A stretch of DNA of 52,038 bases, taken from NCBI GenBank assembly GCA_900696515.1, contig CAADGK010000137.1, positions 1 through 52,038 of the forward strand, in the 5' to 3' direction. Positions within the stretch are counted from its first letter, which is position 1. Every line of letters begins with the position of its first letter. Below the pieces are notes generated by a model that did not search any database, had not been told where the DNA came from, and saw only the letters and a program-made list of their open reading frames with translations. This document shows positions 28,153-49,382 of the stretch, one piece after another. The stretch is from an uncultured Nitrosospira sp. GTDB lineage: Bacteria; Nitrospirota; Nitrospiria; Nitrospirales; Nitrospiraceae. The position numbers and the translations under genes are program-made.

Positions 28153-28207
28153 GTGTGACGTATCTCTAGTGCACTGCTTTCGGTAAACTTTTACACCTGG
28201 AGGTCCT

Positions 28208-28426: not shown

Positions 28427-28447
28427 TCACATATCGATGCCGGCATT

Positions 28448-28621: not shown

Positions 28622-28707
28622 AGAAGGCAGGGACACCACAGTGACCCGAACCGCTGATGAGCGACGACAGTCACGTCAGCCGTAATTGAGCAGAAAGGAC
28701 GGTGACC

Positions 28708-29067: not shown

Positions 29068-29082
29068 TCAAGAGAGGACCAG

Positions 29083-29616
29083 ATGCTAGACGATGCCGAA
29101 TTGAGGAAATCTTCGCGACCCGATGTGCCGAGGTATTACCGGGTGGCCTGTCACTTCTGGTCGGATGAGAAGGTTGCCACCTGGCCAGACTCGCAAAAGC
29201 TGTTCGCGTTGTACCTTCTGACGACGAAGCACCGCACGTTGGAAGGCTTTTTCGTGCTGCCGCCGCAATACATCGCGGCAGATATGGGCTGGCCACTCCG
29301 GCGAGTCAAGGACATGCTACTGAAACTAGAAGGAGATGGGTTCATACGATTCGATGAGAAGACGAGCCTGCTCCTTGTTCGAAATGCGCTCAGGTATCAG
29401 CAGCCGGACAGCAAGAACGTCCAGAAGGCGGTGATTGCGCGGGTCCGCAACCTGCCAGATAGCCCGGAGCTGATTAACGAGTTTCTCTCGCTGGCCAGAG
29501 TCCACTGTCTCCGGAGTGGGCTGTCACCGTTTGCACAAGGGTTTCCGGACTTGTTGGAACGGGAGTTCCGACCGGTGTCGAACGACCGTCAGGAGGTAGC
29601 TCGCAGAGTTGTCTGA
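29083..29616 (+). CDS. Phage replication initiator-type winged-helix protein (DnaT/RepO-like)
   Basis: The 177-residue product opens with a helical N-terminus and a winged-helix segment: YRVACHFWSDEKV, SQKLFALYLLTT, GFFVLPPQYIAADMGWPLRRVKDMLLKLEGDGFIRFDE. The last block is the classic winged helix of phage replication proteins O and DnaD/DnaT relatives, followed by a C-terminal helical region. These bind an origin and help load the host helicase. It is followed by an AT-rich repeat stretch that may be that origin. Confidence 0.65.
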   Translation: MLDDAELRKSSRPDVPRYYRVACHFWSDEKVATWPDSQKLFALYLLTTKHRTLEGFFVLPPQYIAADMGWPLRRVKDMLLKLEGDGFIRFDEKTSLLLVRNALRYQQPDSKNVQKAVIARVRNLPDSPELINEFLSLARVHCLRSGLSPFAQGFPDLLEREFRPVSNDRQEVARRVV

Positions 29617-29640
29617 ACACTCGTTCGACGAGCGTTCCGA

Positions 29641-29760
29641 CCGGCGTAGGAACTCTTAAATCTTAGATCTTTATCTTCTATCTGGAATCGGGAATCATTA
29701 ATCAGGAATCTTAAATCTGGGCTGTGAATGTTTGTGGATAGCGTGGATAGGCAGCAGGAT
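29641..29760. other. AT-rich repeat stretch, candidate replication origin
   Basis: Directly after the winged-helix replication gene come CTTAAATCTTAGATC, GGAATC repeats (29684-29710) and CTTAAATCTG, then TGTGGATAG (29733-29741, one base from a DnaA box) and CGTGGATAGG. Origins of phage and plasmid elements often sit next to their initiator gene. No iteron array is clear. Confidence 0.4.
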
Positions 29761-29876
29761 ATGGGGAATTGAGCCGGAGCGCTCTGATGAGGAGGCTGAC
29801 AAGTGGTTGTGGTGAAGTACTTGAATGCATCCGATCGGGCGGACCAACACGCGAACCTGAACAGGAGGACAACACG

Positions 29877-30233
29877 ATGGGAACAGCATTGACTGATACG
29901 GATAAGGCCAAGGCAGTCGCGCCACGCAAGAAGCGGGAAAAGATTGAGATCATGGAGGTGAACCCTCGAGAGGAATGGTTCAAACGAAGCAGAGATCAAT
30001 TCGGTCGGCTAGTGTGGTTTTTGCGCGTGGAGATGACAGGTCTCCGTCCTAGACGATTCGGCCCCTTCCCTAGCAAGCACAAGGGGCTTTTGTTCCTGGA
30101 CCATCTGCTGAACCAATTGGGTGATGGTTTTTCTGAGGCCACTGGTGACCTTGACCGTTACCAAGTCCGTCGACGTTGCTTTGGGATGCGGGCTGGTCAT
30201 TATCCCGTCGTGGAGGACGAGCTGTGCTCGTAG
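29877..30233 (+). CDS. Unknown basic protein of the replication-side operon
   Basis: The ATG at 29877 has AGGAGGAC upstream; an in-frame ATG at 29769 is not supported. The 118-residue product has a Lys/Arg-rich start (APRKKREKIEIME) and a globular remainder with FGRLVWFLRVEM and RRFGPFPSKHKGLLFLDHLL. No known motif is seen. It lies just beyond the origin-like stretch, on the same strand as the following small genes. Confidence 0.6.
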   Translation: MGTALTDTDKAKAVAPRKKREKIEIMEVNPREEWFKRSRDQFGRLVWFLRVEMTGLRPRRFGPFPSKHKGLLFLDHLLNQLGDGFSEATGDLDRYQVRRRCFGMRAGHYPVVEDELCS

Positions 30234-30299
30234 TGATCGCAAAGGTCGTGGTGCGCCTATGACAAACGGATGCTCTTCAGAACGATGGAGGAAACTCAC

Positions 30300-30539
30300 A
30301 TGATCAAACAAGTAAACGTGTGGACCTTGATTGGTGAACGTGAAGTGGACAGTATCGAACAGGCACTGAACGAGCTGGAATTGAGTCTGGTGACGGTAGA
30401 GGATGTCATCGAGCGGAATGTCGAAGGAGCGGGTGAGAGTTTCATTGGCGTCAATCTCGGCTTGTATGTCCAGCATACGAAGCGCCTTCTCATGCGCTGT
30501 CGGGACCTGATTCAGCCCCACGATGGAGCACAACCATGA
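30300..30539 (+). CDS. Unknown 79-residue protein
   Basis: The ATG at 30300 follows GGAGGAAAC. The helical, acidic product (IKQVNVWTLIGEREVDSIEQALNELELSL) ends with LMRCRDLIQP. It overlaps the next gene by four bases (ATGA), showing translational coupling. Function unknown; it is probably part of the element's small-protein operon. Confidence 0.55.
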   Translation: MIKQVNVWTLIGEREVDSIEQALNELELSLVTVEDVIERNVEGAGESFIGVNLGLYVQHTKRLLMRCRDLIQPHDGAQP

Positions 30540-30721
30540 AGCCTGGGACGAGGGTTAAACGCACGGATCAGCGGGAGCGAAACAGGGACCTGCTGGATGC
30601 CGTTGAAGGCATGCCGGGCCATCACAAGGCTGCCATGCTGGCCCGTATCATGAAGGACGTCGTCGCGGGTAAAATCACCGCGACAGAGGCAAATGAAATA
30701 AGAAAGGCGGTCAAGGTCTGA
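30536..30721 (+). CDS. Unknown 61-residue protein
   Basis: The start overlaps the previous stop (ATGA). A basic N-terminus (KPGTRVKRTDQRERNRD) is followed by HKAAMLARIMKDVVAGKITATEANEIRK, two helices with a turn. It could be a DNA-binding or excisionase-like accessory protein; the evidence is composition and size only. Confidence 0.5.
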   Translation: MKPGTRVKRTDQRERNRDLLDAVEGMPGHHKAAMLARIMKDVVAGKITATEANEIRKAVKV

Positions 30722-30822
30722 AATTTCGGAAGGGCTAAGCGTCGACTGATCCTCGACGTGATGGAGTCGTCCTCGCGGCTCCGGCCCTTCCTTCCCTACG
30801 CGAGGCCTCACGAGGAGGGGAT

Positions 30823-32340
30823 ATGTTGCCACGTTCGTTACGTGGGAAGAAGATCAGGCTTTCTTGTACCCTCAAAGATAAGCAAGGTGCATTACTCGGA
30901 GAGCATGGATCGGTTCTTGTCGTTGGAAAGCATCTCTCCATCAAACTTGCCAAACAGCTTCTGGCTGGTGCCAGTGCCACGATCTTAGACAAACGATTGT
31001 TAAAGCCTTTTTCTGCGCTTCAGGAGTGGCCTAGTTCCATCCAGCTAGGTCCCTTTGAGGGAAAAGGTAAGGCCGATGCTAAGACGATCTCAGTTCATGT
31101 CGGCATCCAACTGAATAGTGTTGGATGTGGTCGGAGTTGGCTGAAGCTACGCGCTGCTCCTTCAACATTCTGTGAACTGTTTGAGCGTTGGTTCTCCACC
31201 GTCACTACACGCCACCTTGGCATATTGCTTATCAAATCTATTCTTAAGGGAGGAGGAGACAATTTGTTTCCGCTGAGATTTTCCTCCGCAACACATGACC
31301 AGATTGAAGAAATTATCGTTGGTAGAGTCCAGCGAGAACGTGCTGTCCCAGTCACGATTCGTATTAAGCATGACAGGAAGGAACATGACATCACACTTTT
31401 AACTGAGAGTTCCGTATTTAAGACCCTTGCCTCGTTTCATCACGGAGATGAGGCCTCAGACGTTCGATTCGGTAAAATTTTTCGTGAGGCACTGCATGCC
31501 GGACGAGATCATGTCCTGAAAGCGCAGCTTCGCAAGGGGAAGAAAGGTGGAAAGTTTCCAACTTCATTTTGGTCTACCGCCGCATGGCTTGGTCCCGCAT
31601 TACTGAACAGATTGAGACAAGCTTATGAGAGTCACCCCAAAGTGATTGAGACGATTCACGAGTACATGACGGAAAAGAGTCAGCGATCGATAAAGCTGAC
31701 TCCTAAGAACATCGGGGTTAGGAATATGGGAGCATTTCTTGTAGACAAGAACTGGCAGAATTTTAAACGGCGCCAGCAGCCAATAGCCAACGATGACGAA
31801 GAAAATACAAACAGTGAAGTGTTGACCAGTACAATTGCTCTCAGGCAGGAAGGCAACAGGAGCGGCACTTATAGTTCTGTCGCTTTCTGGGACAAGATCT
31901 TCTATCAGCAGCTCAAATTGAAGTCTTTTCCTTGGGCAAGGCTTAGAAATAAGAATATTGAGCGATTTAAGGAGCTGATGGAGCAGCCCTGCAAAGAGCA
32001 TTATTTACGGCAGGATCCGACCTGTGATTGGGACAAACTTAAAAGAGATTATCCAACCCGATTCAAGAAACTCATTGATGGGTTCATAAGAAATAAGGAC
32101 CTCGCGGACCGCCACATGAAGCATTACCTGTTTAGCCATGACATGGAGATAGCCAGACGGACTGCACGGCGAATGGAATGGACTCCTGCACAGCGACGTG
32201 AGTTAAGGAGAGACCCGAAAACCGGGAATATGCTGTTGGCACTTCCCACTCAGGGCCCAACGTTCATTCTACCAAAGTCCCTTGAAGAGACGGTCGACGA
32301 CATCCTCTTGAATCGCGACGTATTCATTCTCTCTTCTTGA
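30823..32340 (+). CDS. Large protein of unknown function, candidate cargo
   Basis: The product has 505 residues, with GAGGGG five or fewer bases before the ATG. The N-terminal part (1-110) is beta-rich and basic; residues 120-210 include FCELFERWFSTVTTRHLGI, and residues 250-330 are helical and basic. The C-terminal third has long charged helices (ARRTARRMEWTPAQRRELRRD) and ends LPKSLEETVDDILLNRDVFILSS. There are no transmembrane helices and no recognisable nuclease, ATPase or polymerase motif. It is the largest non-structural gene of the element, and its DNA looks AT-richer than its neighbours. I cannot assign a family; a cargo or defence/interference role is only a hypothesis from its position. 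Confidence 0.7.
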   Translation: MLPRSLRGKKIRLSCTLKDKQGALLGEHGSVLVVGKHLSIKLAKQLLAGASATILDKRLLKPFSALQEWPSSIQLGPFEGKGKADAKTISVHVGIQLNSVGCGRSWLKLRAAPSTFCELFERWFSTVTTRHLGILLIKSILKGGGDNLFPLRFSSATHDQIEEIIVGRVQRERAVPVTIRIKHDRKEHDITLLTESSVFKTLASFHHGDEASDVRFGKIFREALHAGRDHVLKAQLRKGKKGGKFPTSFWSTAAWLGPALLNRLRQAYESHPKVIETIHEYMTEKSQRSIKLTPKNIGVRNMGAFLVDKNWQNFKRRQQPIANDDEENTNSEVLTSTIALRQEGNRSGTYSSVAFWDKIFYQQLKLKSFPWARLRNKNIERFKELMEQPCKEHYLRQDPTCDWDKLKRDYPTRFKKLIDGFIRNKDLADRHMKHYLFSHDMEIARRTARRMEWTPAQRRELRRDPKTGNMLLALPTQGPTFILPKSLEETVDDILLNRDVFILSS

Positions 32341-32430
32341 TCTCCCGTACGTTTCTCTCTCCTTTCAGAAGCGCAAAATTCTTCTTGAAGAAGGATCTTT
32401 TGAATTTGGGATTCCAGTAGCTTAAATCCC

Positions 32431-32625
32431 ATGAAAGCTACTGATCAGATCCTCACATCCGCTGAAGTTGGGAAGAGGCTCAACCTTTCCTCAGAACGTG
32501 TCCGTCAACTTGAACGGACCGGAGAGCTGCATGCCATTCGAACAACGAATGGAATCCGACTTTTTACCGCGTCTGCTATAGAAGAATTCCGCCGTCAGCG
32601 TCAGCACAGGATGCCACGCCGATGA
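32431..32625 (+). CDS. Excisionase/MerR-type DNA-binding protein
   Basis: The 64-residue product, ILTSAEVGKRLNLSSERVRQLERTGELHAIRTTNGIRLFTASAIEEF, is a complete helix-turn-helix plus wing of the excisionase/HTH_17 type. It overlaps the next gene by four bases (ATGA). A second such gene lies next to the integrase; this one may be a regulator of the downstream operon rather than the recombination directionality factor. Confidence 0.75.
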   Translation: MKATDQILTSAEVGKRLNLSSERVRQLERTGELHAIRTTNGIRLFTASAIEEFRRQRQHRMPRR

Positions 32626-32903
32626 AGGATTCGTCTCGGCCGATTCTTTGTAAAACCGTGGTTACTGCGCTTCGCGCATTCGTCAATCTAGATGGCATGT
32701 GTGAATTGTCGTTTCATAATCTTTCTCGTGTCACTGGTTATTCCAGGCGGTCCGTGATCCAAGCCATCAAAGGTCTCGTTGCACGTGGTGCAATAGTCGT
32801 CCACCGTCGCTATGCGTCTGATGGCACCCAACTCTGCAATGCGTATCGCATGACCGCTGAGCAACCAAGTCAACCAGCAAGAGGGGTGCGGTGTGTCACG
32901 TGA
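32622..32903 (+). CDS. Winged-helix replication/regulatory protein
   Basis: The 93-residue product, coupled by ATGA to the previous gene, has LSFHNLSRVTGYSRRSVIQAIKGLVARGAIVVHRR, a winged helix like the HTH_36 modules of phage replication and MarR-like proteins. A short disordered tail follows. It probably binds DNA; the target is unknown. The next gene starts inside its 3' end, so the three are one operon. Confidence 0.65.
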   Translation: MKDSSRPILCKTVVTALRAFVNLDGMCELSFHNLSRVTGYSRRSVIQAIKGLVARGAIVVHRRYASDGTQLCNAYRMTAEQPSQPARGVRCVT

Positions 32904-33402
32904 GTTAGACGAAGCAACCATCGTACTGACGACTGAAGCGCTCCCCGTCGTCTCGGATGTGGAGCTGGAGATCGATGCGGCCCCAGTCCGAGTCGCGCCA
33001 GGTAACTATGCGGCGGAGTGCCTGAAAGTCACGAAAGTCGACCGCAGAGAGTGGCGCCGCACATACTGGCAATTCCGCTTTCGACTGCGCGGCATTGGCC
33101 CTGAGAACCACATCATCCTGCCCGGGTTCGTGAACATACCCAGAAAGGGAAAGGTATCAGCTTACAGCAAACTTGGCCGCTGGGCGCGCATTATTGCTGC
33201 GTACACCGGTGGACGAGCGGATCGTGTGACTATGAAAGCTTTTGGTCAATTTCTATTTACCGTCAAGGTGGAAACAGTGACTCAAGCAAATTCCAAGGGC
33301 GACAAAAAACCATTCACACTTCCGGAGGCCGCGCAATACGAGGTCGTGTCGGAAGTCTTGGACATTGTCGGTCAACTGGCGCCGCGTTCGAGTGCAACAT
33401 GA
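32893..33402 (+). CDS. Phage-type protein of unknown function
   Basis: The product has 169 residues from a GTG inside the end of the previous gene. It is beta-rich: VAPGNYAAECLKVTKVDRREW, YWQFRFRLRGIGPENHIILPGFVNIP. The overall look recalls small single-stranded-DNA-binding or DUF669-type phage proteins. No diagnostic residues are seen. It follows two DNA-binding genes in one operon. Confidence 0.55.
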   Translation: MSRELDEATIVLTTEALPVVSDVELEIDAAPVRVAPGNYAAECLKVTKVDRREWRRTYWQFRFRLRGIGPENHIILPGFVNIPRKGKVSAYSKLGRWARIIAAYTGGRADRVTMKAFGQFLFTVKVETVTQANSKGDKKPFTLPEAAQYEVVSEVLDIVGQLAPRSSAT

Positions 33403-33605
33403 AGAACCATCCCAATCCAGACCATCCCAATCCATCCCATACCACCCTCAGGCTCTTTAACGTATTGCTTTCTAAAAGAGAAAGAGAGTGTCCTGGCAAA
33501 ACTAATCGCGCGCGTTTTTGCATTTCCGGCGGGGTGGCCGTCATCAACAGCAGCAACTGTCCATCACCCGGGCCGGGCGAGGCAACTCCCCGGCTCGACA
33601 GGCTG

Positions 33606-33788
33606 ATGTCCCTGGAGTTCGATAGGACGGAGCTGACTCGTTTGCTGTGTAATTTGGATCTGTGTCAGCGGTTTACGACGCGGGGTGACTCTGAGCAGCG
33701 AGTGCATTTGATGCACCGTAGGGTTGGGCCGGTTGATAGTGAGAGGCTTTATGTTTCAGAGCATCATTCGACCGGTGAGCGAGATTGA
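33606..33788 (+). CDS. Small phage protein, paralogue 1
   Basis: I choose the ATG at 33606 (60 residues); the frame continues back to 33399, but residues there are low-complexity Pro/Asn. The core LLCNLDLCQRFTTRGDSEQRVHLMHR matches the protein encoded just downstream. Function unknown. Confidence 0.5.
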   Translation: MSLEFDRTELTRLLCNLDLCQRFTTRGDSEQRVHLMHRRVGPVDSERLYVSEHHSTGERD

Positions 33789-33945
33789 GGAATCGGATGT
33801 GCTGAGCGTCGAGCATGCAGCGACGGCTCGCTGGCTGTGCGATGTGGACCTCCGCCAACGGTTTCTCACTCTTCCGGATTACCTGCAGCGAGTGCGGTTG
33901 ATGCGACTGGGGATGGTGCCGCTGGATGCAACCCTTTACCCGTAA
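33751..33945 (+). CDS. Small phage protein, paralogue 2
   Basis: The ATG at 33751 follows GAGAGG, giving 64 residues. WLCDVDLRQRFLTLPDYLQRVRLMR aligns with the preceding small protein (shared LCxxDLxQRF and QRVxLM). It overlaps the first gene in another frame by 38 bases and ends 20 bp before the S49 protease gene. I infer a tandem duplication; the function is unknown. Confidence 0.55.
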   Translation: MFQSIIRPVSEIEESDVLSVEHAATARWLCDVDLRQRFLTLPDYLQRVRLMRLGMVPLDATLYP

Positions 33946-33965
33946 CGGAAATAACGAGGTGGACC

Positions 33966-34928
33966 ATGTTTCAATTTAATCAGCCGTGGGCGATCAAACC
34001 GGCACTGCTTCAACCATTAGCTGAGGCGTATACCTCCTCCATGCGTGAAGCCACTTTCCTGGCTGTGCGTTCGACTACGTCGACTGTCGCTTCCCGCGCC
34101 GGGTATGAGCTGAACGACGGGGTCGCGGTGATTCGCCTCACTGGCGTGTTGCTGAGACATGAGCCGTCCTGGTCGGGGCTGTTCGATGTGACCTCGACCG
34201 CGCACGTGAGTGAAGTGCTTCGCCTCGCACTCCGCGATTCGTCAGTCCGGGCCATTGTATTGGCCGTTCACAGTCCTGGGGGTGCAGTCGACGGTGCCCA
34301 GGAGCTGGCGCGCCAAGTCTATGCGGCCCGGAGAAGTAAGCCCATTGTTGCCTATGCGGAAGGCTTGATGGCGAGTGCCGCGTACTGGATCGGTGCGGCT
34401 GCTGATCAGGTGTATATCAGCAGCGAGACGACGGAGCTCGGTTCGATCGGTGTCGTCGCGACGCATGTCGACATCTCGAGAGCTGAGGACGCGCGCGGCC
34501 TCAAGACGACAGAGATCGTCGCCGGGCAGTACAAGCGTGTCGCCTCTATGTATCAGCCTCTCTCCCAACTCGGTCGGTCGACCCTGCAAGAGCAGGTCAA
34601 TCAGGTCTATTCAGTCTTCGTCAATGACGTTGCCACCTTTCGCCGGACGACACCAGAGACGGTCATCCGTTCCATGGCAGACGGGCGAATCTTTCTCGGG
34701 CGGTCCGCCATCGCTGCGGGCCTTGCCGACGGCAAGACGACGCTGGATACCCTCACGAGCCATTTACGCACGAGTACGGCTTCGATGGGCCCACGCGCCC
34801 AAACACTACTGCAGCAATTTAAGAATGATGCATCGCTTCGGCAGCAGTATGGGTCGATCAGTCGGTACGCTGAGGAGTGCGATCCCGCTGTGCTTCATGG
34901 CTACGACCAGCAAGTTCCCAGTCACTAA
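33966..34928 (+). CDS. S49 (SppA/protein C-type) serine protease, phage head-maturation type
   Basis: The ATG at 33966 follows GAGGTGG; the product has 320 residues. The Ser-Lys dyad family is recognised by AVHSPGGAVDGAQELA, the nucleophile Ser in EGLMASAAYWIG and the Lys in VAGQYKRVASMYQPLS. Phage capsid genomes use such proteases to cleave scaffold and head proteins. It has no signal peptide, unlike chromosomal SppA. The following coiled-coil gene could be its substrate. No major capsid or portal gene is found nearby, so its function here is uncertain. Confidence 0.85.
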   Translation: MFQFNQPWAIKPALLQPLAEAYTSSMREATFLAVRSTTSTVASRAGYELNDGVAVIRLTGVLLRHEPSWSGLFDVTSTAHVSEVLRLALRDSSVRAIVLAVHSPGGAVDGAQELARQVYAARRSKPIVAYAEGLMASAAYWIGAAADQVYISSETTELGSIGVVATHVDISRAEDARGLKTTEIVAGQYKRVASMYQPLSQLGRSTLQEQVNQVYSVFVNDVATFRRTTPETVIRSMADGRIFLGRSAIAAGLADGKTTLDTLTSHLRTSTASMGPRAQTLLQQFKNDASLRQQYGSISRYAEECDPAVLHGYDQQVPSH

Positions 34929-34954
34929 CCACCAACCCACACCAAGGAGGAATC

Positions 34955-35599
34955 ATGTCCACATTGTTACAGCGAGTCAAATCGAACATGCAGAAGCCTG
35001 CTGCGGCCAGTCCTGAGCGTGAGGCCAGACTGAAAGCTGCGGCTGAGTTGCGGCAAGCCACCGATAATGTGTATGCGGGACGGAGGCGGATTGATGCCAT
35101 CAGGGTAAAAAAGTCTGAGTTGTCCGCAACCGTCGCGCTGCTGGAAGTAGAGGATGCCGAGGCTCGCAAAGCAAAATCAGCCGCGATGGTAGCCTATGCG
35201 GCTGGACAGGCTACGGAGGATGTAGTCACTCAAGCCAGTACGCGCGCACGAGACATCGCCTCTCGGCTGAGCGATGCTCGAGAGATGCACAATGCTTTGG
35301 AGGGGGAAGTCTTGCGCGCAGAATCGGATGCGCCGCCGTCCCGTGATTTGGATGGAATTAAGGAACGAGCTGAGCGCGTCTTCTGGTCTACCGTCTTTGC
35401 GGAGATCGCAGCTACGGAAGCACCGGCTGGCGTGCAGGAATGGATCAGGCGATGTTGGGCTGTGTTTCGCGTATATGGCTATGGTGGCCTTCCCGAAATG
35501 TACGCGCAGCTCTTCGCTGCGGAGTTCGATCGTCAGGAGATGGAGACGATTCGGCAGGACATTGAGCGCGAGTTCTTATCAGATAGTGCGCGTGTTTAA
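34955..35599 (+). CDS. Coiled-coil protein, scaffold-like
   Basis: AAGGAGGA precedes the ATG at 34955. The 214-residue product has extensive Ala/Glu/Arg-rich helices (residues ~20-120) typical of coiled coils, and a globular C-terminal third (FWSTVFAEIAATEAPAGV...GYGGLPEMYAQLFAAEF). It follows the S49 protease by 26 bp. In phage operons this position is often the scaffold or a head accessory gene; I infer that here without a family match. Confidence 0.6.
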   Translation: MSTLLQRVKSNMQKPAAASPEREARLKAAAELRQATDNVYAGRRRIDAIRVKKSELSATVALLEVEDAEARKAKSAAMVAYAAGQATEDVVTQASTRARDIASRLSDAREMHNALEGEVLRAESDAPPSRDLDGIKERAERVFWSTVFAEIAATEAPAGVQEWIRRCWAVFRVYGYGGLPEMYAQLFAAEFDRQEMETIRQDIEREFLSDSARV

Positions 35600-35635
35600 C
35601 CAACCACACTCAGCGTGTGAACGAAGGGTTGTGAC

Positions 35636-35806
35636 ATGAGAGTTATTGCTCCACCTCGAGACGTTGTTGGTGACTCGATGCTGCAGCTCTGGCGAGGTAC
35701 GCCAGAACTGCAAGCACGCTTTCCGGAGACAGAAGGCGGCGCGGCGGCCTTCTGCGCGTATGTGCAAGAAGTCGTACGACAGAAGATTGCTACGGAAGGT
35801 AGATAG
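35636..35806 (+). CDS. Unknown 56-residue protein
   Basis: The ATG at 35636 has GAAGGG upstream. The product (VVGDSMLQLWRGTPELQARF, AAAFCAYVQEVVRQKIATEGR) is amphipathic and helical. It fits between the coiled-coil gene and a degraded stretch. Function unknown. Confidence 0.5.
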   Translation: MRVIAPPRDVVGDSMLQLWRGTPELQARFPETEGGAAAFCAYVQEVVRQKIATEGR

Positions 35807-35809
35807 TCC

Positions 35810-36330
35810 ATGTGGGCCTATCTGGCCAGAGGCATTACCGATGTGCACCGCATGAACACACTTTGTGGTGCCGTACGAGATGCCTACACATTGACGCTGC
35901 GGTGCCAGCGTCAATCCGTCGGGATCGGGACGGGCGCAGCGGATCCGATCAGGGCCGTCTCCTCGGCCACGCACCATCTGCTGCCACTATCTTGTTTATC
36001 AATTTCTTGTGGAATCCAGATCGCCCGCATCGTCACAAGACGGTTGTGGAGATGGCAGATCGTCGTCTCGCAACCCTTCATCAGGAGTCTCAACCTCTCC
36101 TCCATCACAAGGTGTTTCCCCTTCTTAAAAAGCAAAAGGTACTGTGACGAGAGTGAGCTATACGGGAAAGGGACTTCGCGCAAATTCGCTAGTCACAGGT
36201 TCAAAAAGGAGCCTACGTTGTTGAAGCTAATGGGCTTATACGCGAACGATCTGGAGGCGGTGAATACCACTGGTCATCTTTCAAGGCGGGACGCGCCTAC
36301 AGGGCATTTATGAAGCCGATCTGTTTTTAA
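35810..36330 (+). pseudogene. Degraded stretch of phage-like gene fragments
   Basis: An ATG frame at 35810 starts well (WAYLARGITDVHRMNTLCGAV...) and then loses protein character. A second frame gives FLWNPDRPHRHKTVVEMADRR (about 36006-36068). A third gives AYVVEANGLIRERSGGGEYHW and FKAGRAYRAFMKP before a stop at 36328-36330. Fragments in different frames suggest one or two frameshifted genes where a portal or packaging gene might have been. I cannot name them. Confidence 0.35.
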
Positions 36331-36365
36331 TGTGAAATCTGGGTGGACGTGAGCGTGGTGGGAGT

Positions 36366-36920
36366 TTGAGGAAATATAGACCTGGCTATCTGACGAAATA
36401 TGCCAAACATGCGGGGATCGCTCTGTCTTCAGCATCGGAGGCTCTTCAGCGAGTCGGAATAGATTATATGCAGCCGTTTGATTTCGCTGACGCTGACCGG
36501 CGGCGTGAGGCAGCCCGCCACGCCGACAGAGACGCTTTCTCGAAGCGAATCAAGATCAGCAATGAAGATGAAGGGCCGGTCGATCCTGAAACCAAGAAGG
36601 ATCCTAAGTTTATCGAGAGCCAGGCGCGCCGCGAGATGTTCAAGGCGAAGCTTACGGAGCTTGAGTATCAGGAACGGGTTGGTGAACTGATACCGGCCAA
36701 GGACGTTGATGATGAGTGGTTCAGACTTGCGCGGCTGGTGCGGGACACCATGCTGAACATCCCGGCACGGATCGCCGATCAACTGGCACATGAGACCGAT
36801 CAGCGCAAGGTGCAGGACCTGCTTGAACAGGAAATCTATCAGGCCCTCGAAACGCTTTCCGGCGAAGGGGAGCAGGCCATACAGCCTTCCTGTGAAGCAG
36901 AGCCTGAGATCCTACAGTGA
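36366..36920 (+). CDS. Phage terminase small subunit-like protein (Nu1 type)
   Basis: The 184-residue product starts at TTG 36366. The N-terminal helix-turn-helix reads YLTKYAKHAGIALSSASEALQR; the central and C-terminal helices read ARREMFKAKLTELEYQERVGELIP and AKDVDDEWFRLARLVRDTMLNIPARIA, which match Nu1/TerS-like DNA-packaging proteins that bind packaging sites. A TerL partner should follow but a tape-measure gene comes next. I infer that the element packages DNA with a borrowed large terminase or that the gene was left by decay. Confidence 0.7.
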   Translation: MRKYRPGYLTKYAKHAGIALSSASEALQRVGIDYMQPFDFADADRRREAARHADRDAFSKRIKISNEDEGPVDPETKKDPKFIESQARREMFKAKLTELEYQERVGELIPAKDVDDEWFRLARLVRDTMLNIPARIADQLAHETDQRKVQDLLEQEIYQALETLSGEGEQAIQPSCEAEPEILQ

Positions 36921-36935
36921 CGAAGGGAGATTAAG

Positions 36936-39287
36936 ATGGCGGGCAACGAACTCGCGGTGGTGCTCAGGCTGGTCGCCGATCAGTTCAAGAGTGAGCTGCA
37001 ATCCTCTCGCGGGGCGATTGGGCAGTTCAACGATTTCTTGAAAGACTGGCGCACGCAGCTGTCGGCCGCCGGTGCCGCGCTCTTTGCTGTGGCGAAGAGC
37101 ACGGCGGACTTCGGCGAGGAGATGCTGAAGGGGGCACAAAAGGCGGGCGCGACGGTCCAGAGCTTTAGCGCCTTGGCCCATGCCGCAAAGATGGCCGACG
37201 TCGAGCAGCAGACGCTGATCAACGGGATGAAAGCCTTGTCCGTCACTATGGCGGAGGCAGCGCGAGGGAACAAGGACTCCGTGGAGCTCTTTGCCCGGCT
37301 GGGGGTGTCGGCGGTCGATGCCACGGGCAAACTCCGTCCGATCGAAGCCGTGATGCTCGATCTTGCCGACGTCTTCGCTTCGTCTGCCGATGGCGCCGGA
37401 AAGAATGAAGTCGCGGTCAAGCTCTTCAGTAAGGCCTGGGAGGGCTTTCTGCCATTTTTAAATCAAGGCAGGGAAGCCATTCAGGCACAAGAAGCCGAGG
37501 CCGCGAAATTAGGGCGCACGCTCTCTGAGCAGGATGCCAAGGCGGCGGATGCGTTCAACCTGGAACTGAAAAAACTCGAGGCGGCGATGAAGGGGCTCGT
37601 GACGAATGCCGGCCGCCCACTACTGGTATCGCTGACCGATCTCGTCACATTGATGAAAGAGATCACGTCTGGTCCGGTAGGTGGATCCGTCCAAAGCACC
37701 TTTGCGGTCATGGGAGAACACCTGCTGGGACTCACCCAGGCCGCGAAGGAGTTTGCAGTGGTCTGGAAGTTTGCGTTTGGCGGTGGGAAAGACAGCCTCT
37801 CATGGGAGCAGTTGAAGGGGGAACTGGCGAGAATCGAGAAGGAATGGACCCTCCGGCTGTTTCGATTGCAGCACCCTCTGGCCGCGCCACTCTTGGAAGG
37901 GCCGGCTGAGAAAAAGTCGAGAACTGTACCGTTGAGTGCAGATGGTCCGGTGAAGCCTGGCGCGACATCCTCTACAGGGAAGCCGTTTGACCAAGCCAAG
38001 TGGGCAACAGAGAAGGTTGCGCTGTGGACCGGGCAATGGAATGAGCAGCACGCGAAAGACCTGATTGAAATTTGGCTGACCGGAAATCGGGCCCTGGAGA
38101 TTCAGAAAAAGTTGATCGGGGAAGAATTGGACCTCCTGTTCCGGCAGGAGCAGCTGACGGACGAAGGCCGCAAGAAGCGGGACGAGCAGAACCGCGCGCA
38201 ACTCGATGCCGGGCTGGCCAATGCGGAGCGGATGCTGGAGGCCAATGAGCAGGCGCAGCAGAAGGAGCGGGCCGGGTTGGTGACGCTCGCGCAGGCCTGG
38301 CTTGACTATGACAATCAGGTTGGGGCCTCGCGGGAGCAGCGGTATACGCATCAGATGGATCTGCTGCGGGCCACGCTCACGAAGGAAACGCAGCTCACGC
38401 AGGACGAGGCGGCGCGGCTGGTGCTGGCCTGGCAGAACAATGAGACGCAGCTCGCGCAGGATATTTTGAATCGTACCAATTTGACCGGGCAGGAGCGCGA
38501 AATTCTCGAGCGGCAATCGCTCGCCCGGCTGGCGGCGCTGCATCAGGAATCCGCCGACGGGATTTTCGAGGGTTGGAGTCGCGGGCTGGAGAACTATGTG
38601 CGGAATACCGATTCCGCCTTCGGCTTCGCCGCGCAGATGGCGCAGCGGACCGCGCAGTTCATGGAGCAGAATTTCCGCACGTTCTTCTTCGATGTGATGG
38701 ACGGCAACATCAAATCACTCAACGATCTGTTCAAGGGCTTTGCGAATTTCGCGAAGCAGATGATCGCGCAGGTGATGGCGCAGCTGGCCACGATGTTGGC
38801 GCTGAAGGCCGCGACGGGGCTCATGAGCGGCGGGCTGGGCGGATTCTTCGGGGGCTTCGGCGGGCTGTTCGGCGGCAGCGGCGGCGCGGCGGCAGTGTCG
38901 GGCGGTGTCGATGCCGGCGGCCTGTTCGGCGGGCTGTTCGGCGGCAGCGGCGGCGCGGCGGCAGTGTCGGGCGGTGTCGATGCCGGCGGCCTGTTCGGCG
39001 GGTTGCAGTTTGTGGCGGGCGGGCCGGTGCTGGGCGCGGGCAACAGCGACACGGTGCGCGCGATGTTGACGCCGGGCGAGGGCGTGTTGAATCGGCGGGG
39101 GATGGAGGCGCTCGCGCAGCTGAACAGCGGGGCGATGCCGGCGACGACAACTCAGCAACCGGTGATTGTCAATTTTCATGGTGTGGTCGCTGGCCAACAG
39201 CCCGAGGTCAATATCCGGCGTCAGTTTGAGGGCATGGTTATCGATGTGGTCTTGAAAAATCGCCGCGATCTGTTTGGGTACCAATGA
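36936..39287 (+). CDS. Phage tail tape-measure-like protein
   Basis: The product has 783 residues with GGGAG upstream of the ATG. The N-terminal half has the TMP pattern (ELAVVLRLVADQFKSELQSSRGAIGQFNDFLK, then FSALAHAAKMADVEQQ). The central part is helical; the C-terminal ~170 residues are Gly/Ala-rich with membrane-like helices and a tandem repeat. Tape-measure proteins set tail length and help DNA entry. It has no neighbouring tail genes except a small 153-residue partner overlapping by four bases. This is the only long structural gene in the element. Confidence 0.8.
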   Translation: MAGNELAVVLRLVADQFKSELQSSRGAIGQFNDFLKDWRTQLSAAGAALFAVAKSTADFGEEMLKGAQKAGATVQSFSALAHAAKMADVEQQTLINGMKALSVTMAEAARGNKDSVELFARLGVSAVDATGKLRPIEAVMLDLADVFASSADGAGKNEVAVKLFSKAWEGFLPFLNQGREAIQAQEAEAAKLGRTLSEQDAKAADAFNLELKKLEAAMKGLVTNAGRPLLVSLTDLVTLMKEITSGPVGGSVQSTFAVMGEHLLGLTQAAKEFAVVWKFAFGGGKDSLSWEQLKGELARIEKEWTLRLFRLQHPLAAPLLEGPAEKKSRTVPLSADGPVKPGATSSTGKPFDQAKWATEKVALWTGQWNEQHAKDLIEIWLTGNRALEIQKKLIGEELDLLFRQEQLTDEGRKKRDEQNRAQLDAGLANAERMLEANEQAQQKERAGLVTLAQAWLDYDNQVGASREQRYTHQMDLLRATLTKETQLTQDEAARLVLAWQNNETQLAQDILNRTNLTGQEREILERQSLARLAALHQESADGIFEGWSRGLENYVRNTDSAFGFAAQMAQRTAQFMEQNFRTFFFDVMDGNIKSLNDLFKGFANFAKQMIAQVMAQLATMLALKAATGLMSGGLGGFFGGFGGLFGGSGGAAAVSGGVDAGGLFGGLFGGSGGAAAVSGGVDAGGLFGGLQFVAGGPVLGAGNSDTVRAMLTPGEGVLNRRGMEALAQLNSGAMPATTTQQPVIVNFHGVVAGQQPEVNIRRQFEGMVIDVVLKNRRDLFGYQ
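38861..38998 (+). repeat. 69-bp tandem duplication in the tape-measure gene
   Basis: Two exact 69-bp units (38861-38929 and 38930-38998) encode 23-residue glycine-rich repeats (GLFGGSGGAAAVSGGVDAGG). They preserve the frame. A recent in-frame duplication changes protein length by 23 residues. Confidence 0.85.
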
Positions 39288-39745
39288 GTATCACGCTTCA
39301 GGTGCTCAGTGATTGCACGATCACCGGGCCCTTCGGATTCCGCATGCATGGCCCTGGCGAACTGCTGACCTTGCCTGTGCCCGAAGCGCTTAAGGTGATG
39401 AATCTAGAGCCGAGCCATTTCAAGATCGTGAACCCAACGCCGCTCATTGCAGGCGTGGCGGTGCGCTGGCTCTTGCCAGATGATCGGGCGCAAGGGCCAG
39501 GCCTGGTGCAGTTGGTTGATGGTGCCTACCCAGACCGGCGGATATCCGTGCTGCTGGACGGCGAGCTTCGATGGATTCATGAGCGAGACATCGTAGAGAT
39601 CGACCCCTGGCCCGCAATCGACGCTCGGCTCGAGGAAGCGGTGGAGTATCTGCTTGTTGATGGCGACGAATCACCAAAAACCCAAGAGGTGAGAGATTGG
39701 ATCGCCGCACACTTTGATGAGGATAAAGATCAGTGGATGGGGTGA
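39284..39745 (+). CDS. Unknown 153-residue protein after the tape measure
   Basis: It is coupled by ATGA to the tape-measure gene. The N-terminal part (SDCTITGPFGFRMHGPGELLTLPV) is beta-rich; the C-terminal part is acidic and helical. No motif is recognised. Position suggests a tail-assembly or tail-tip partner, but that is inference. Confidence 0.55.
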   Translation: MSITLQVLSDCTITGPFGFRMHGPGELLTLPVPEALKVMNLEPSHFKIVNPTPLIAGVAVRWLLPDDRAQGPGLVQLVDGAYPDRRISVLLDGELRWIHERDIVEIDPWPAIDARLEEAVEYLLVDGDESPKTQEVRDWIAAHFDEDKDQWMG

Positions 39746-39800
39746 GGAATACCTGGGACAGTTTCGAATAGTGTGGAACGTTGCATAAACGGGAAATGTG

Positions 39801-40112
39801 ATGAGACCGTTGAATCTTCAAGAAGCCGCACAGTTCCTTCGGATGTCGAGATCTTCTCTGTACCAGAGAAAAGATATTCCTCGGTATCGACGCCCAGGAT
39901 CGCGCGCACTCTTGTTTGATCAGGATGAGCTTGAAGCATGGGTCAAGACTGGTCGCGTTGAGCTTGTGCTCTCGTCAGGCGTGGCGATCGACCCCCAGGT
40001 TGCCTCACAGGCAGCAGGTAGTAGCTCTGTTAGTACTGGAGTGCTCTCTTCGAGCGATGCTCTGGACATTCGTAGATCAGGTGTCTACCATCGCAATCCC
40101 CGTTATCGTTGA
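39801..40112 (+). CDS. Excisionase-like protein next to the integrase
   Basis: The 103-residue product begins LNLQEAAQFLRMSRSSLYQRKDIPRYRRPGSRALLFDQDELEAWV, the helix-turn-helix with wing of HTH_17/excisionase proteins, and ends in a Ser-rich tail. It is seven bases upstream of the integrase gene. I infer the recombination directionality factor. Confidence 0.75.
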   Translation: MRPLNLQEAAQFLRMSRSSLYQRKDIPRYRRPGSRALLFDQDELEAWVKTGRVELVLSSGVAIDPQVASQAAGSSSVSTGVLSSSDALDIRRSGVYHRNPRYR

Positions 40113-40119
40113 AATCCGC

Positions 40120-41334
40120 ATGGCCTACACGATCACTAAAAGACATACGAAGAAAGGCCTGGCCTTCGATCTCTATTTCCGCTTGAGGGGTGTCCGTTAT
40201 CGTCCGCTTCTTGGCTACAACCTCACGAAGCAGCAGGCCGAGGAGGCCGCGATCGCCATGACCGCCAAGATACAGACGCAATCTGCTCTACCCCGCAGCA
40301 GAGAATCCACACACACCCTCCGCGACCTGCTCACGTTGTTCTGGGATAGTTTCGCCGTGAAAAAACGGGTCGATCACGTTCGTCCGAAAGGAATTCTTGA
40401 GAACCATCTTCTGCCGGCGTTCGGTGATCGCACTGTGTCATCGCTGACCCCTACAGACGGCTTGGACTATGTTCGTAAGCGTCAACAGGCCGGTGCTTCC
40501 GCGGGGACCATCCGTCGAGAGTGGCAAGTCCTGATGCGCTTGCTCAACCTGGGGGTTCGCTACGACTGGCTCGATAAGAACCGGCTCAAGGCCGTGGAGC
40601 TCCCAGACGCACAACGGCGTACTCGTGTTGCTGAGGTCCAGGAACTTGAACGAATTCGGCAGCTCAAGGACCGTGTCATGCTTGAAGTCTTGAAGGAATT
40701 GTGGCGGGTTGTGGTGGCCGAGCTCAATATCGGATTACGAGAGGCCAAACTCCTCAGCATCGATCGATCATGGATCCGACAGGAGGTCGACGGCTGGTGG
40801 TTAGTCCTCCCGCCGAGTGCGACGAGACTGAAGGGCACCCCAACGCGCATTCCCCTGAATGCCTCAGCCCTGTGGGCACTTCGTGACCCGTTGCCTTCAC
40901 TCACTGACGGCCGAGTGTTTCGACGTTGGAGTGACGTAAGAGCGTTCAAAAAGTACTGGGCGCGGGTCTGTACCCTGGCGAAGATCCAAGATCTGCACTT
41001 TCACGATCTCCGGCACACCTTCGCCACCAGATTGCAGGGCCTTGGTGTCGATTATGAAGTGCGGCAAGCGCTTCTGGGTCACCGGATGCCTGGCATGACG
41101 GCCACCTACTCTCATGGCGGTCCCGCGTGGGATCAAAAGCTCCGTGATGCGGTCACGAAGCTCGATTCCGCCTTCAAGTTGTCCTATGGATTGTCCTATA
41201 AACGACCAGCGGTCGCGGTGGCTGACCCTAACCTATTGAATTGTGGTGAGCCGGCTGGGACTCGAACCCAGGGCCCTCGCCTTAAAAGGGCGATGCTCTA
41301 CCGACTGAGCTACCGGCTCACAATCGAACGCTGA
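40120..41334 (+). CDS. Tyrosine integrase of the tRNA-Lys element
   Basis: The product has 404 residues. An N-terminal arm domain (YTITKRHTKKGLAFDLYFRLRG) and core-binding domain (about 65-165) precede the catalytic domain (about 190-370). Catalytic residues are Arg in LNIGLREAKLL, His-x-x-Arg in HFHDLRHTFATRL, His in LLGHRMPG and Tyr in ATYSHGG. The last ~30 codons run antisense through the tRNA-Lys gene, so the C-terminus is encoded by attR and host DNA. The TGA stop lies in repeat copy D. It catalyses site-specific recombination between attP and the tRNA 3' end. Confidence 0.95.
   Translation: MAYTITKRHTKKGLAFDLYFRLRGVRYRPLLGYNLTKQQAEEAAIAMTAKIQTQSALPRSRESTHTLRDLLTLFWDSFAVKKRVDHVRPKGILENHLLPAFGDRTVSSLTPTDGLDYVRKRQQAGASAGTIRREWQVLMRLLNLGVRYDWLDKNRLKAVELPDAQRRTRVAEVQELERIRQLKDRVMLEVLKELWRVVVAELNIGLREAKLLSIDRSWIRQEVDGWWLVLPPSATRLKGTPTRIPLNASALWALRDPLPSLTDGRVFRRWSDVRAFKKYWARVCTLAKIQDLHFHDLRHTFATRLQGLGVDYEVRQALLGHRMPGMTATYSHGGPAWDQKLRDAVTKLDSAFKLSYGLSYKRPAVAVADPNLLNCGEPAGTRTQGPRLKRAMLYRLSYRLTIER
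41243..41288. repeat. attR: 46-bp direct repeat inside tRNA-Lys
   Basis: Identical to 23639-23684. It covers the 3' part of the intact tRNA-Lys gene and lies inside the integrase ORF. Confidence 0.93.
41244..41319 (-). tRNA. tRNA-Lys(UUU)
   Basis: The 76-base cloverleaf on the minus strand has acceptor GAGCCGG/CCGGCTC, D-arm GCTCAGTCGGTAGAGC, anticodon stem TCGCC/GGCGA with loop CTTTTAA (anticodon TTT), T-loop TTCGAGT and an encoded CCA. Its 3' half is the element's attachment site. Confidence 0.97.
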
Positions 41335-41448
41335 AACCGGTCGTCAACTTCGTTCTCGCGTCGCTCCAACCTTGCGACGTACCAGCTGCTGTACGCCTCA
41401 GGTTTTCGCTCACTGCGGCCTTGTTGGCAACCGATTTGAGCGTCCTCG
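41328..41448. repeat. Dispersed repeat, diverged copy D
   Basis: This stretch aligns with copy C: CGCTGAAAcc, CGTTCTCGC.TCGCTC, GTACGCCTC, TCACTGCGGCCTTG.TGG and TTTGAGC.TCCT in the same order. It is more diverged than A-C and has no clear right-hand CTAG. The integrase stop TGA (41332-41334) lies in its GCTGA end. Confidence 0.6.
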
Positions 41449-47175: not shown

Positions 47176-47287
47176 CTCACTCCTCACACCGTGCGAGAAT
47201 TGTATACGCAGGGCCACACGAGCGCAAATGACCCCTTGACCATGCAGGCAGCCGATGGTACGACGTTCGATACCAACGGACCGAACG

Positions 47288-48085
47288 ATGCTCGCTCAGA
47301 TTAATGGCATCACCCTCGCCTTCAATGATCACGGGACAGGACCGCCCCTTGTCTTTCTCCATGCCTTTCCGCTCAACCGCAGCATGTGGACGGACCAAGA
47401 AACAGCCCTTTCAACACAGTTCCGCGTGATCACGATTGACCTGCGCGGACACGGCGAATCCGATGCGCCGCTCTGGCACTATTCTCTCGACCAGGCCGCA
47501 GATGACGTGCATGGCCTGCTGGATCACCTTTCGATCCGTCAAGCGGTCCTCATCGGATTGTCGATGGGGGGCTACATCGCCTTGGCCTTCTATCGAAAGT
47601 ATGCCGAGCGTGTCAAAGGATTGATATTGGCCGATACGAGGGCCCAGGCGGATACAGAGGATGGGAAACGGGCGCGCTTTGAAATAGCTCAGCTTGCGTA
47701 CAAACAAGGGCCGAGCGCGATCGCCGATCTCATGATCTCCAAGTTGCTGAGCCCTGCAACGATTCAGACGAGGCCGGAGCTGGTTCAACGGGTACGCACG
47801 ATGATCGAGGGCACTCAAGTGAGTGGCATTGCCGGGGATCTCATGGCGATGGCCGAGCGGCCAGATTCTATCCCGCTCCTACAGCAGATTGGCTGTCCGA
47901 CTCACATCATTGTCGGTGAGCTGGATGTGCCAACGCCGCCTGCCGACGCCCGGTTCATGGCGGATAGGATTCCTCATGCCCGCCTGGCCGTCATTCCAGG
48001 AGCAGGCCATCTCTCGAACTTGGAACAGCCGGATCTGTTCAATGAAGCGATCCGTTCCTTTGGTTTGCTTCTAGCAGGATGCTGA
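47288..48085 (+). CDS. Alpha/beta hydrolase
   Basis: The product has 265 residues from an ATG at 47288. Features are the oxyanion HAFPLN, nucleophile elbow GLSMGG (Ser near 94), acid in GELDVPTP and His in GAGHLSN. This is the fold of 3-oxoadipate enol-lactonase/BioH-like hydrolases; the substrate is unknown. The last residues and TGA stop lie in repeat copy C (CTAGCAGGATGCTGA), so the C-terminus may be shaped by the insertion. It is divergent from rarA. Confidence 0.9.
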   Translation: MLAQINGITLAFNDHGTGPPLVFLHAFPLNRSMWTDQETALSTQFRVITIDLRGHGESDAPLWHYSLDQAADDVHGLLDHLSIRQAVLIGLSMGGYIALAFYRKYAERVKGLILADTRAQADTEDGKRARFEIAQLAYKQGPSAIADLMISKLLSPATIQTRPELVQRVRTMIEGTQVSGIAGDLMAMAERPDSIPLLQQIGCPTHIIVGELDVPTPPADARFMADRIPHARLAVIPGAGHLSNLEQPDLFNEAIRSFGLLLAGC

Positions 48086-48272
48086 AAAAGACCGCCAGCG
48101 GCGTTCTCGCATCGCTCAGAGGCTCAGCGTACCGAAGCGTACGCCTCGCCTCCTCACTCACTGCGGCCTTGCTGGACAACCTTTTTGAGCATCCTGGGTG
48201 TTCGTGTTCTACCTCTCTCTCTTATTTCAACGGTGGTTGATGTATACACTGAGTGTTTCAGCAGACTGCTAG
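48071..48272. repeat. Dispersed repeat, copy C
   Basis: This 202-bp element has ends CTAGCAGGATGCTGAAAAAG and TTTCAGCAGACTGCTAG. It is inverted relative to A and B, with the central GTACCGAAGCGTAC palindrome and GCGGCCTTGCTGGACAACC block. The left end gives the stop codon of the alpha/beta hydrolase gene. Confidence 0.85.
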
Positions 48273-48313: not shown

Positions 48314-48961
48314 TCACTCTGGATCGCCGACGCTGCCCCGTCGAATCAATTTCAAAAACTCCTCGCGCGTCTGCGATTGACTGCGGAATGCTCCCAACAT
48401 TGAGCTGGTGACGGCCACGGTGTTTTGTTTTTCCACGCCCCGCATCATCATGCAAAGATGTCGGGCTTCGATCACAACGCCGACGCCATGGGCATTCAGC
48501 TTCGTGCTCAATGTTTCAGCGATCTGCACCGTCAACCGTTCTTGAACTTGCAGACGCCTGGCGAACATGTCGACGATCCGCGGGATCTTGCTGAGACCGA
48601 CCACCTTCTTGTTGGGCAAGTAGCCGACGTGGACTCGACCAAAAAACGGCAGCAAGTGATGTTCACACATGCTGAAAAAGTCGATGTCTTTGACGATGAC
48701 CATTTCGTCATATTCGATCGGAAACAGCGCGCCGTTCAGGAGGTGATCGATATCACGCTGGTACCCCTGCGTCATAAAGGCCAGGGCTTTGGCCACGCGC
48801 TCAGGGGTCTTGAGCAGCCCATTCCGACTCGGCTTTTCGCCGAGGGCGAGGAGCATCTCCGTCACCAGCGATTGGAGGACCGGTAAGTCCGGAGCCCGTC
48901 CGCTTCCGTTGGCGTCTTCCACCGATGTCGGTCGTTTCTCTCGTTTTGGTGACTTTCTCAC
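48314..48961 (-). CDS. folE: GTP cyclohydrolase I
   Basis: The GTG at 48961 follows GAAAGGGA, 17 bases after the PTPS stop codon, giving 215 residues. GTP cyclohydrolase I motifs: zinc Cys and His in [27 protein letters not shown], and His/Cys in [11 protein letters not shown] ~20-residue polar N-terminal extension precedes the core. It converts GTP to 7,8-dihydroneopterin triphosphate, the entry to folate, queuosine or biopterin. Coupled with the 6-pyruvoyltetrahydropterin synthase homologue just upstream, so a queuosine or pterin product is likely. Confidence 0.95.
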
Positions 48962-48977
48962 GATATTCCCTTTCGCC

Positions 48978-49382
48978 TTAACTGGCGCCCGTATATTCAA
49001 AATAGTTGTCTCTGGTCTCAATGACACCGACTTTGTGCAGACGACCGGCAGGCAGCAGCGGGGTGAGGATGTCCCAGATCACTGCGACAAGATTCTCTCC
49101 CGTTGTGGTCAAGGCGGAGAACGCCGGGTCACTGTTCAGATCCTGATGATCAAAGCGTTCGATGACCGTATCGGTGACGAGGCGGTCAAGGGAATCCAGG
49201 TCGGTCATACTCTCCGCCGTTCCGGCACGAATCGTCACCAGGACCACATAGTTATGTCCGTGACCGTTCGTATTGTTACATTTGCCGAAAGCAGCCCAGT
49301 TTTCTTCAGGAGAGAGGAGATCCGTGTGCAGCCGATGGGCGGCGCAAAAACGATAGCGTCTGGTCACAAATATCTGTGACAT
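48978..49382 (-). CDS. 6-pyruvoyltetrahydropterin synthase / QueD family enzyme
   Basis: The 134-residue protein has the PTPS zinc site: His in CAAHRL (about 16) and His-x-His in NGHGHNY. Catalytic Cys lies in [11 protein letters not shown], Asp/His in FDHQDLN, and Glu in [14 protein letters not shown] forms 6-pyruvoyltetrahydropterin; QueD forms carboxytetrahydropterin. The [11 protein letters not shown] motif leans toward the PTPS-type. Next to folE, it fits pterin or queuosine precursor synthesis; I cannot decide between the two. Confidence 0.85.

Follow-up and report, generated by a model that had tools for sequence, protein, structure and literature searches.

A probably mobile imperfect hairpin often lies directly behind gene 3' ends in Nitrospira, and related hairpins often do so in other bacterial lineages

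The window, by which we mean the whole stretch of 52,038 nucleotides that was analysed (contig C137 of an assembly of 4.585 Mb in 144 contigs), carries four copies of a dispersed repeat, which we call A, B, C and D. All four copies named by the first-pass annotation are present and belong to one repeat. The copies and the genes around them are as follows, with positions counted along the window.

20238 to 20544, minus strand: copy A, with nested inserts; its CTAG at 20541-20544 contains the TAG of the PagL-like gene
20541 to 21356, minus strand: PagL-like gene, with its stop inside the CTAG of copy A
22640 to 22844, minus strand: copy B, a full-length element flanked by CTAG left and right; the open reading frame ending there is not credible
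39916 to 41334: phage-type integrase open reading frame, with its TGA (41332-41334) inside copy C
41320 to 41447, plus strand: copy C, degenerate, adjoining a tRNA-Lys gene (41244-41319, minus strand)
47255 to 48085, plus strand: alpha/beta hydrolase open reading frame, with its TGA (48083-48085) inside the left arm of copy D
48071 to 48272, plus strand: copy D, a full-length element of 202 nt made of YTAR, hairpin, tail, right inverted repeat and YTAR
48071 to 48074, plus strand: left CTAG of copy D, target duplication; of 14 full copies flanked by YTAR left and right, 12 have the same tetranucleotide at both ends
48075 to 48196, plus strand: hairpin core of copy D, 122 nt, imperfect, recognised by folding and covariation
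48254 to 48268, minus strand: right terminal inverted repeat of copy D (reverse complement, CAGTCTGCTGAAACA), similar to the termini of IS5-family elements from sister genomes
48269 to 48272, plus strand: right CTAG of copy D
48314 to 49027, minus strand: convergent gene for GTP cyclohydrolase I, at a distance of 41 nt from the right end of copy D

The repeat is an imperfect hairpin of about 122 nt. Complete copies, about 202 nt long, also have a tail, inverted repeats at the ends and a YTAR duplication. In copy D, used here as the reference, the hairpin (CAGGATGCTGAAAAAG ... CTTTTTGAGCATCCTG) comes directly after the left CTAG and is followed by the tail, the right inverted repeat and CTAG. 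Folded as RNA, this hairpin reaches -53 kcal/mol on the top strand and -67.5 kcal/mol on the bottom strand, and it is much more stable than shuffled sequence on both (z -4.6 and -6.8, respectively). A GC-rich mini-hairpin of about 39 nt is nested at one site, after GGCGTT, in the window (20317-20544) and at the loci L013, L015, L016 and L020, and a second, longer insert is nested in copy A, L022 and L025. They mark either distinct subfamilies or a spot hit by insertion more than once.

The 5' end of the hairpin faces the open reading frame in all four copies, and hence the common gene-relative orientation that had been claimed for copies A to C extends to copy D. It had also been claimed that the terminus of each copy provides a stop codon to the adjacent gene. 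This holds for copy A, where the TAG lies in CTAG, and in a different way for copies C and D. The hydrolase frame at D and the integrase frame at C run through the first bases of the element to the TGA of ..GCTGA, which is located inside the left arm, 11 nt beyond the first tetranucleotide, and therefore the element does supply the stop there. Copy B has no credible gene, as the 86-aa frame at 22841-23101, whose end falls in the CTAG of this copy, scores -9.1 for coding and has no Pfam match. Part of tRNA-Lys is repeated directly and without mismatch over 46 bp in the window, at 23639-23684 and 41243-41288, and a third copy, 80% identical, lies at 23306-23351. Together with the integrase frame beside the intact tRNA-Lys, this suggests an integrated element of about 17.6 kb at window positions 23639-41288. 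A 783-aa open reading frame (36936-39287) contains a perfect 69-bp tandem duplication at 38856-38993.

A DNA search of the own assembly with copy D gave 47 matches. A covariance model of the hairpin gave 59 matches, eight of which are the reverse strand of another, leaving 51 hairpins. The model used is R2, with a structure folded from the consensus, which replaced an earlier model R1 because the consensus of RNAalifold itself missed the long stem. We assembled a set of 137 copies from 46 of these 51 hairpins and from two single-contig genomes, G022 (56 copies, after one opposite-strand match was dropped from 57) and G040 (35 copies). The set leaves out the five weakest hairpins of the own genome and three copies known from their end pattern only. 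A sense stop lies exactly at the left tetranucleotide in three of these five and two of these three, and therefore the omission did not favour the claim about gene ends. Nitrospira genes were called with a home-made 3-periodic Markov caller, and open reading frames of at least 80 codons were used for the other lineages.

The complete form of the repeat has the marks of a mobile element. Its end pattern YTARCAGNNTGYKGAAAAA has 38 occurrences in the own genome with at most one mismatch and the reversed pattern none; among the 39 genomes searched, of which the own is one, 29 contain the pattern without mismatch, and so do 20 of the 22 others of the same genus. Terminal inverted repeats with up to four mismatches are present at both ends of 33 of the 137 copies, compared with 10 of 714 windows by chance, while a recognised right end is absent from 104. 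The equal YTAR flanks listed above amount to 12 of all 33 full copies, against a shuffled mean of 5.3 over the same 33 (p=0.0004). Elements of about 1.25-1.3 kb in sister genomes have the same kind of ends and encode a transposase; for example, L037 has the end CAGTCTGCTGAAAAA, CTAG on both sides and a 360-aa transposase that scores 251 bits against the NCBI IS5-family model NF033581 (cut-off 140). Both element ends are found without mismatch in L037, L038, L040 and L062 of the sister genomes. Based on the shared ends, the YTAR duplication and the IS5-family transposase, the complete form is a miniature inverted-repeat transposable element (MITE) of an IS5-family element. An autonomous parent was not found in the own draft genome: none of the six DDE_Tnp_1 loci checked, nor the two places with DUF772 (L044 and L032), has the ends on both sides at up to two mismatches. 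We hence rejected a parent element at these loci of the own draft genome, parent-type elements being found in the sister genomes instead.

The first-pass annotation had suggested targeting to gene ends or a shared 3'-end module, a suggestion that an absence of bias across the genome would have contradicted. We found a strong bias. In the own genome a sense stop ends exactly at the left tetranucleotide in 21 of 54 elements. Of the 137 copies in the three Nitrospira genomes, 47 have the hairpin's 5' end exactly at a sense stop and 72 have it no more than 7 nt away from one; for the opposite hairpin end the respective numbers are 6 and 11. Of 89 left neighbours that are sense genes, 76 are separated from the hairpin by -22 to 7 nt and the other 13 by at least 30 nt. 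The orientation is clearly biased in the 104 copies that have no recognised right end, of which 59 against 4 are sense-oriented (p=1e-13). The 33 full-length copies have 11 exact stops on the left and 5 on the right, or 13 and 7 within 7 nt (p=0.26), and show no clear orientation bias. A supply of stop codons is mostly not what these sites show: the exact cases are stops overlapping the left tetranucleotide, mostly the TAG or TAA of YTAR, and the element can be said to contribute the stop only where the TGA lies inside it at +11, as in C and D and in 3 of the 89 sense genes on the left.

Targeting of YTAR alone does not explain the bias. The YTAR sites of the same loci that are non-disruptive would lead one to expect 8.1% hairpin-first stops, and 34% were seen (p=3e-18), with the caveat that this null is rough and depends on the home-made gene calls. 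The next called start is at most 60 nt from the hairpin in 25 of 46 codirectional abutting cases, and therefore a stabiliser or a partial terminator is favoured at those sites. Only 22 of the 72 abutting copies lie between convergent genes. One copy in the own genome lies 8 nt behind a tRNA-Gln gene. A cluster in G022 (L188, G022:C1:1285746-1296234) packs seven hairpins onto one strand within 10.5 kb, and six of the seven abut a sense stop; two Y1_Tnp genes are 4-7 kb off, and the genome-wide rotation test is not significant.

The hairpin core extends beyond Nitrospira. Its loop motif CTCAACGTAC..GTACGCCTCG was matched in at least 120 stretches; the 80 of them that were listed come mostly from Nitrospira records, and the matches listed also include records labelled Rokubacteria, Geobacter, Desulfuromonadales, Desulfobacteraceae, Deltaproteobacteria, Nitrospirae, Muiribacteriota, Uhrbacteria, Bacillota and Acidimicrobiia; many of these records are metagenome-assembled genomes (MAGs), whose labels may be wrong. 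Model R3, built from the R2 matches in loci of other lineages, gave 15 to 96 matches per genome at E<=0.001 in 12 genomes, which were picked for having the motif, opposite-strand matches being included in these numbers. The outer stems vary by lineage (GAAACCTCTG, GAGACCGCTG and GTTGACGCTG), and the right arms match each of them. We consider membership in a broad family of imperfect hairpins of about 120-130 nt to be the best explanation of the core.

In four of these genomes, with loci drawn from the best matches listed, 26 of 46 hairpins start between -7 and +11 nt from the stop of a sense open reading frame, compared with 3 of 46 for antisense frames and 113 of 2717 random positions (4%). 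By genome the sense-abutting hairpins are 16 of 25 in G053, 4 of 11 in G055, 2 of 6 in G046 and all 4 in G045. We restrict the headline number to these four genomes because the interval of -7 to +11 was chosen after nine single loci of other lineages had been viewed; eight of these nine abut, and having been inspected beforehand they are kept apart. Four of 27 loci, clipped at contig ends (L402, L414, L428 and L408), and one partial match (L407) were left uncounted. The stops in other lineages include TGA and the flanks often have no YTAR, and the idea of a stop supplied by the element fails there, as ordinary TGA, TAA or TAG stops merely precede the hairpin. In the Uhrbacteria genome G052 we examined 30 hairpins of 46 matches, many of them weak, and 8 of the 30 abut a gene, three of them at the ends of tRNA-Ile, tRNA-Tyr and tmRNA. 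Given these cases and the varied stops, what the sites have in common seems to be a gene 3' end and not a stop-codon motif, with the tRNA cases being few. A Nitrospirae hairpin (L416) lies on the opposite strand just upstream of a tRNA-Asp gene. In the Bacillota-labelled MAG G055 (L405, L417, L429 and L478-L487), 6 of 11 hairpins have a CTAG foot, and the right tail is nearly identical in the three loci that were read further; this has the look of a recent burst. At L401 in the Rokubacteria genome G047 the start of a second hairpin comes directly behind the first, apparently a tandem hairpin pair behind one stop codon.

Several observations indicate that the structure is under selection. Among 128 aligned matches the covariation score is 0.284, compared with 0.117+-0.003 for shuffles that retain the same alignment and at most 0.056 for slid arms; the alignment (A3) was fitted to the model and so leans toward the structure, comes from 100 sources and not from all loci, and includes one opposite-strand match. 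It has 556 double-changed cells against 165 in the shuffles, with double changes in 39 of the 45 stem pairs. Eight orthologous pairs of hairpins between genomes, judged by upstream proteins that are 65-91% identical, carry 43 compensatory double changes, i.e. changed on both sides and still Watson-Crick, where 3.3 are expected. Seven of the eight are at the stop codon and the eighth lies further downstream, and in about five of them the sequence just past the hairpin has diverged, as judged by eye. One pair lies behind a purH-like gene, with the start of a purD-like gene next in G022 (names given by eye from translated ends). Copies less than 85% identical to the consensus also differ by position: with equal identity and right-abutting copies left out, the median folding energy is -55 kcal/mol for abutting copies and -47.7 for others over all lengths (44 versus 33 copies, p=0.001), and -55 versus -44.4 for lengths up to 135 (42 versus 30 copies, p=6e-5). 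Palindrome repair by template switching mimics compensatory change and could account for part of the covariation, but it does not explain the difference in folding between abutting and other copies. One orthologous pair, G022:C1:1634315 (L195) and G040:C1:877462 (L221), is away from the stop and just before the next gene; its hairpin follows a conserved leader with AGGGTGGTACC and its T-run, presumably a T-box from the look of this motif.

The strand that folds better is the bottom strand, i.e. the template strand of the abutting gene, where the top and bottom labels were given from sequence homology alone. Using RNA parameters the bottom strand is more stable in 113 of 137 Nitrospira hairpins and all 85 others, and using DNA parameters in 115 of 137 and 83 of 85, which is 198 of 222 in either case. 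As argued from the letters, the top-strand mismatches of the conserved loop CTCAA/CCTCG would become two G.U pairs and a tandem G.A on the bottom strand. AAAA..TTTT tracts were found in 133 of the 222 hairpins overall and in 2 of 30 in Uhrbacteria. The predicted folding of the bottom strand speaks against a terminator that simply works from the sense strand, and our interpretation leaves this point, above all others, unexplained.

The placement and the structure of the hairpin are firm. For their cause, the reading to which we give about an even chance is that a mobile hairpin has been kept as a module of gene 3' ends, putatively a terminator or mRNA stabiliser, as judged from sequence. An IS5-family transposase would spread the complete form, and landing on a stop codon would be harmless since YTAR contains TAG or TAA. 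Copies whose hairpin comes immediately after a gene, in sense orientation, may then be retained, because the transcribed hairpin, with its A-tract, stem and T-tract, would end or stabilise the upstream transcript. Several points weigh against such a module: the better-folding strand is the bottom and not the transcribed top strand, and T-tracts are often missing; full termination in the short codirectional gaps would cut off the next gene at many copies, including the one between the purH-like and purD-like genes in G022; the conservation of the loops across lineages exceeds the needs of a terminator; and the full-length copies are not clearly oriented, with a weaker bias in G055, G046 and Uhrbacteria.

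A preference for the insertion site could by itself pile up copies without any function, if the element targets YTAR and TAG or TAA stops are among the few harmless sites. The 12 equal duplications among 14, the CTAG-type flanks of the IS5-family parent and the absence of a significant orientation bias in full-length copies at stops fit this idea. We nevertheless consider it rather unlikely, as it predicts 8% of copies at stops where 34% are there exactly, and accounts neither for the 59:4 orientation of copies without the right end, nor for the TGA stops and non-YTAR flanks of other lineages, nor for compensatory changes at orthologous sites. The stability of the bottom strand under both parameter sets, and the reading of its loop as G.U pairs plus tandem G.A, could instead mean that the folded bottom strand is a single-strand DNA substrate of a recombinase or transposase, whose mechanism dictates the position behind genes, as with attC or REP sequences; the attC sites of integrons likewise lie behind stops of open reading frames and are active as the bottom strand. 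Such a substrate seems unlikely to us, given that the attC R box GTTRRRY is at the right end of only 6 of 137 copies, that no hairpin occurs in 30 Y1-transposase loci and rotation tests give p of 0.26 and 0.05, and that hairpins are vertically inherited at orthologous genes.

The same strand asymmetry would also be expected if RNA polymerase arriving from downstream made the bottom-strand hairpin and stopped before entering the gene, an antisense insulator that would fit with hairpins beginning exactly at gene 3' ends and with the three Uhrbacteria cases at tRNA and tmRNA ends. With convergent neighbours at only 22 of 72 abutting copies and the T-tract absent from many, it is the least probable of the explanations. 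It is possible, though on the doubtful side, that the hairpins form an undescribed structured nucleic-acid family of several bacterial lineages, including the Uhrbacteria-labelled record of about 0.9 Mb, positioned to the nucleotide after gene 3' ends and functional as the folded bottom strand or its RNA, which some protein would recognise; the capture by IS5 in Nitrospira would then be secondary.

Dispersed bacterial palindromes have usually been seen as debris or as loosely tied to gene ends. A core that is shared by distant lineages, sits at stops on the single-nucleotide scale and shows compensatory change makes the question of selfish versus host function directly testable. The hairpin is a structured RNA or DNA family without a match in Rfam 15, and may be used for the annotation of gene ends in Nitrospira and uncultured lineages.

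Rfam searches at the curated threshold with the window and 14 loci of other lineages gave tRNAs only, and searching with the element alone at E<=5 brought up a single snoRNA match that falls well short of the gathering score. Three queries found nothing in plasmid and phage collections. Among the top-ranked open-licence PMC papers on the motif or the phenomenon, none was named that deals with this hairpin. The complete form is like other IS5-family MITEs in being short, with terminal inverted repeats, a 4-bp YTAR duplication and the ends of a full IS5-family element; it is unlike them in that 104 of 137 copies have no right end and that the core hairpin occurs with unrelated outer stems in other lineages. 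Integron attC sites are imperfect hairpins behind the stop of an open reading frame with the bottom strand structured and active, a likeness that does not extend to the R boxes (RYYYAAC in 2 and GTTRRRY in 6 of 137, the latter at the right end) or to the arrangement, as our copies are dispersed and not in arrays. We rejected attC identity on the rarity of the R boxes. The MIRU repeats of mycobacteria also sit at stop codons between genes, where they target overlapping stop and start sites, but are not known to form such a hairpin.

Two further parallels come from published descriptions. The SPRITE repeats of Streptococcus pneumoniae are described as MITE-like dispersed repeats with a terminator-like fold, enriched near the 3' ends of coding sequences, and their authors proposed co-option as terminators (PMC3049150). 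The same paper gives 30 copies in the studied strain, a distribution nearly confined to S. pneumoniae and S. mitis, and an 18-bp stem plus a U-rich tract with AAAA/TTTT ends (PMC3049150). Compared with SPRITE as described there, our hairpin is longer, has conserved loops, lies at zero distance to stops and occurs in several phyla. REP elements, including GTAG- and CGTC-tagged palindromes, are described as dispersed intergenic hairpins with an unpaired foot tetranucleotide in several phyla (PMC3733652, PMC6006769). Our repeat is likewise a dispersed hairpin with a foot tetranucleotide, and differs from REP as described in its length of about 122 nt and from the GTAG-tagged kind in its foot, which is YTAR in 57 and GTAG in 4 of 137 copies. 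No hairpin lies beside a Y1-transposase gene in 30 loci with 1.5-kb flanks, and the rotation test on the median distance between hairpins and Y1 genes gave p of 0.26 and 0.05, the latter in one genome. We therefore rejected a REP-associated Y1 transposase (RAYT) as the mover. Y1_Tnp is present in 7 of 7 Nitrospira genomes with hairpins and absent from G008 (80% complete) and G009, which have no end pattern, numbers too few to weigh. The 'class 4' multicopy sites of Geobacter metallireducens are described as CCYTC pentanucleotide repeats, and a likeness to multicopy sequences in numerous other genomes is claimed for them (PMC2700814); their likeness to our hairpin, compared by description only, is in being multicopy. 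A review of MITEs names a terminator as a conceivable role (PMC10969869). By these descriptions a dispersed hairpin linked to gene ends is of a known kind, as in the SPRITE and REP literature; within the literature searched, and as far as our searches reach, what is new here is its breadth, the exact abutment to gene ends and the conserved loops.
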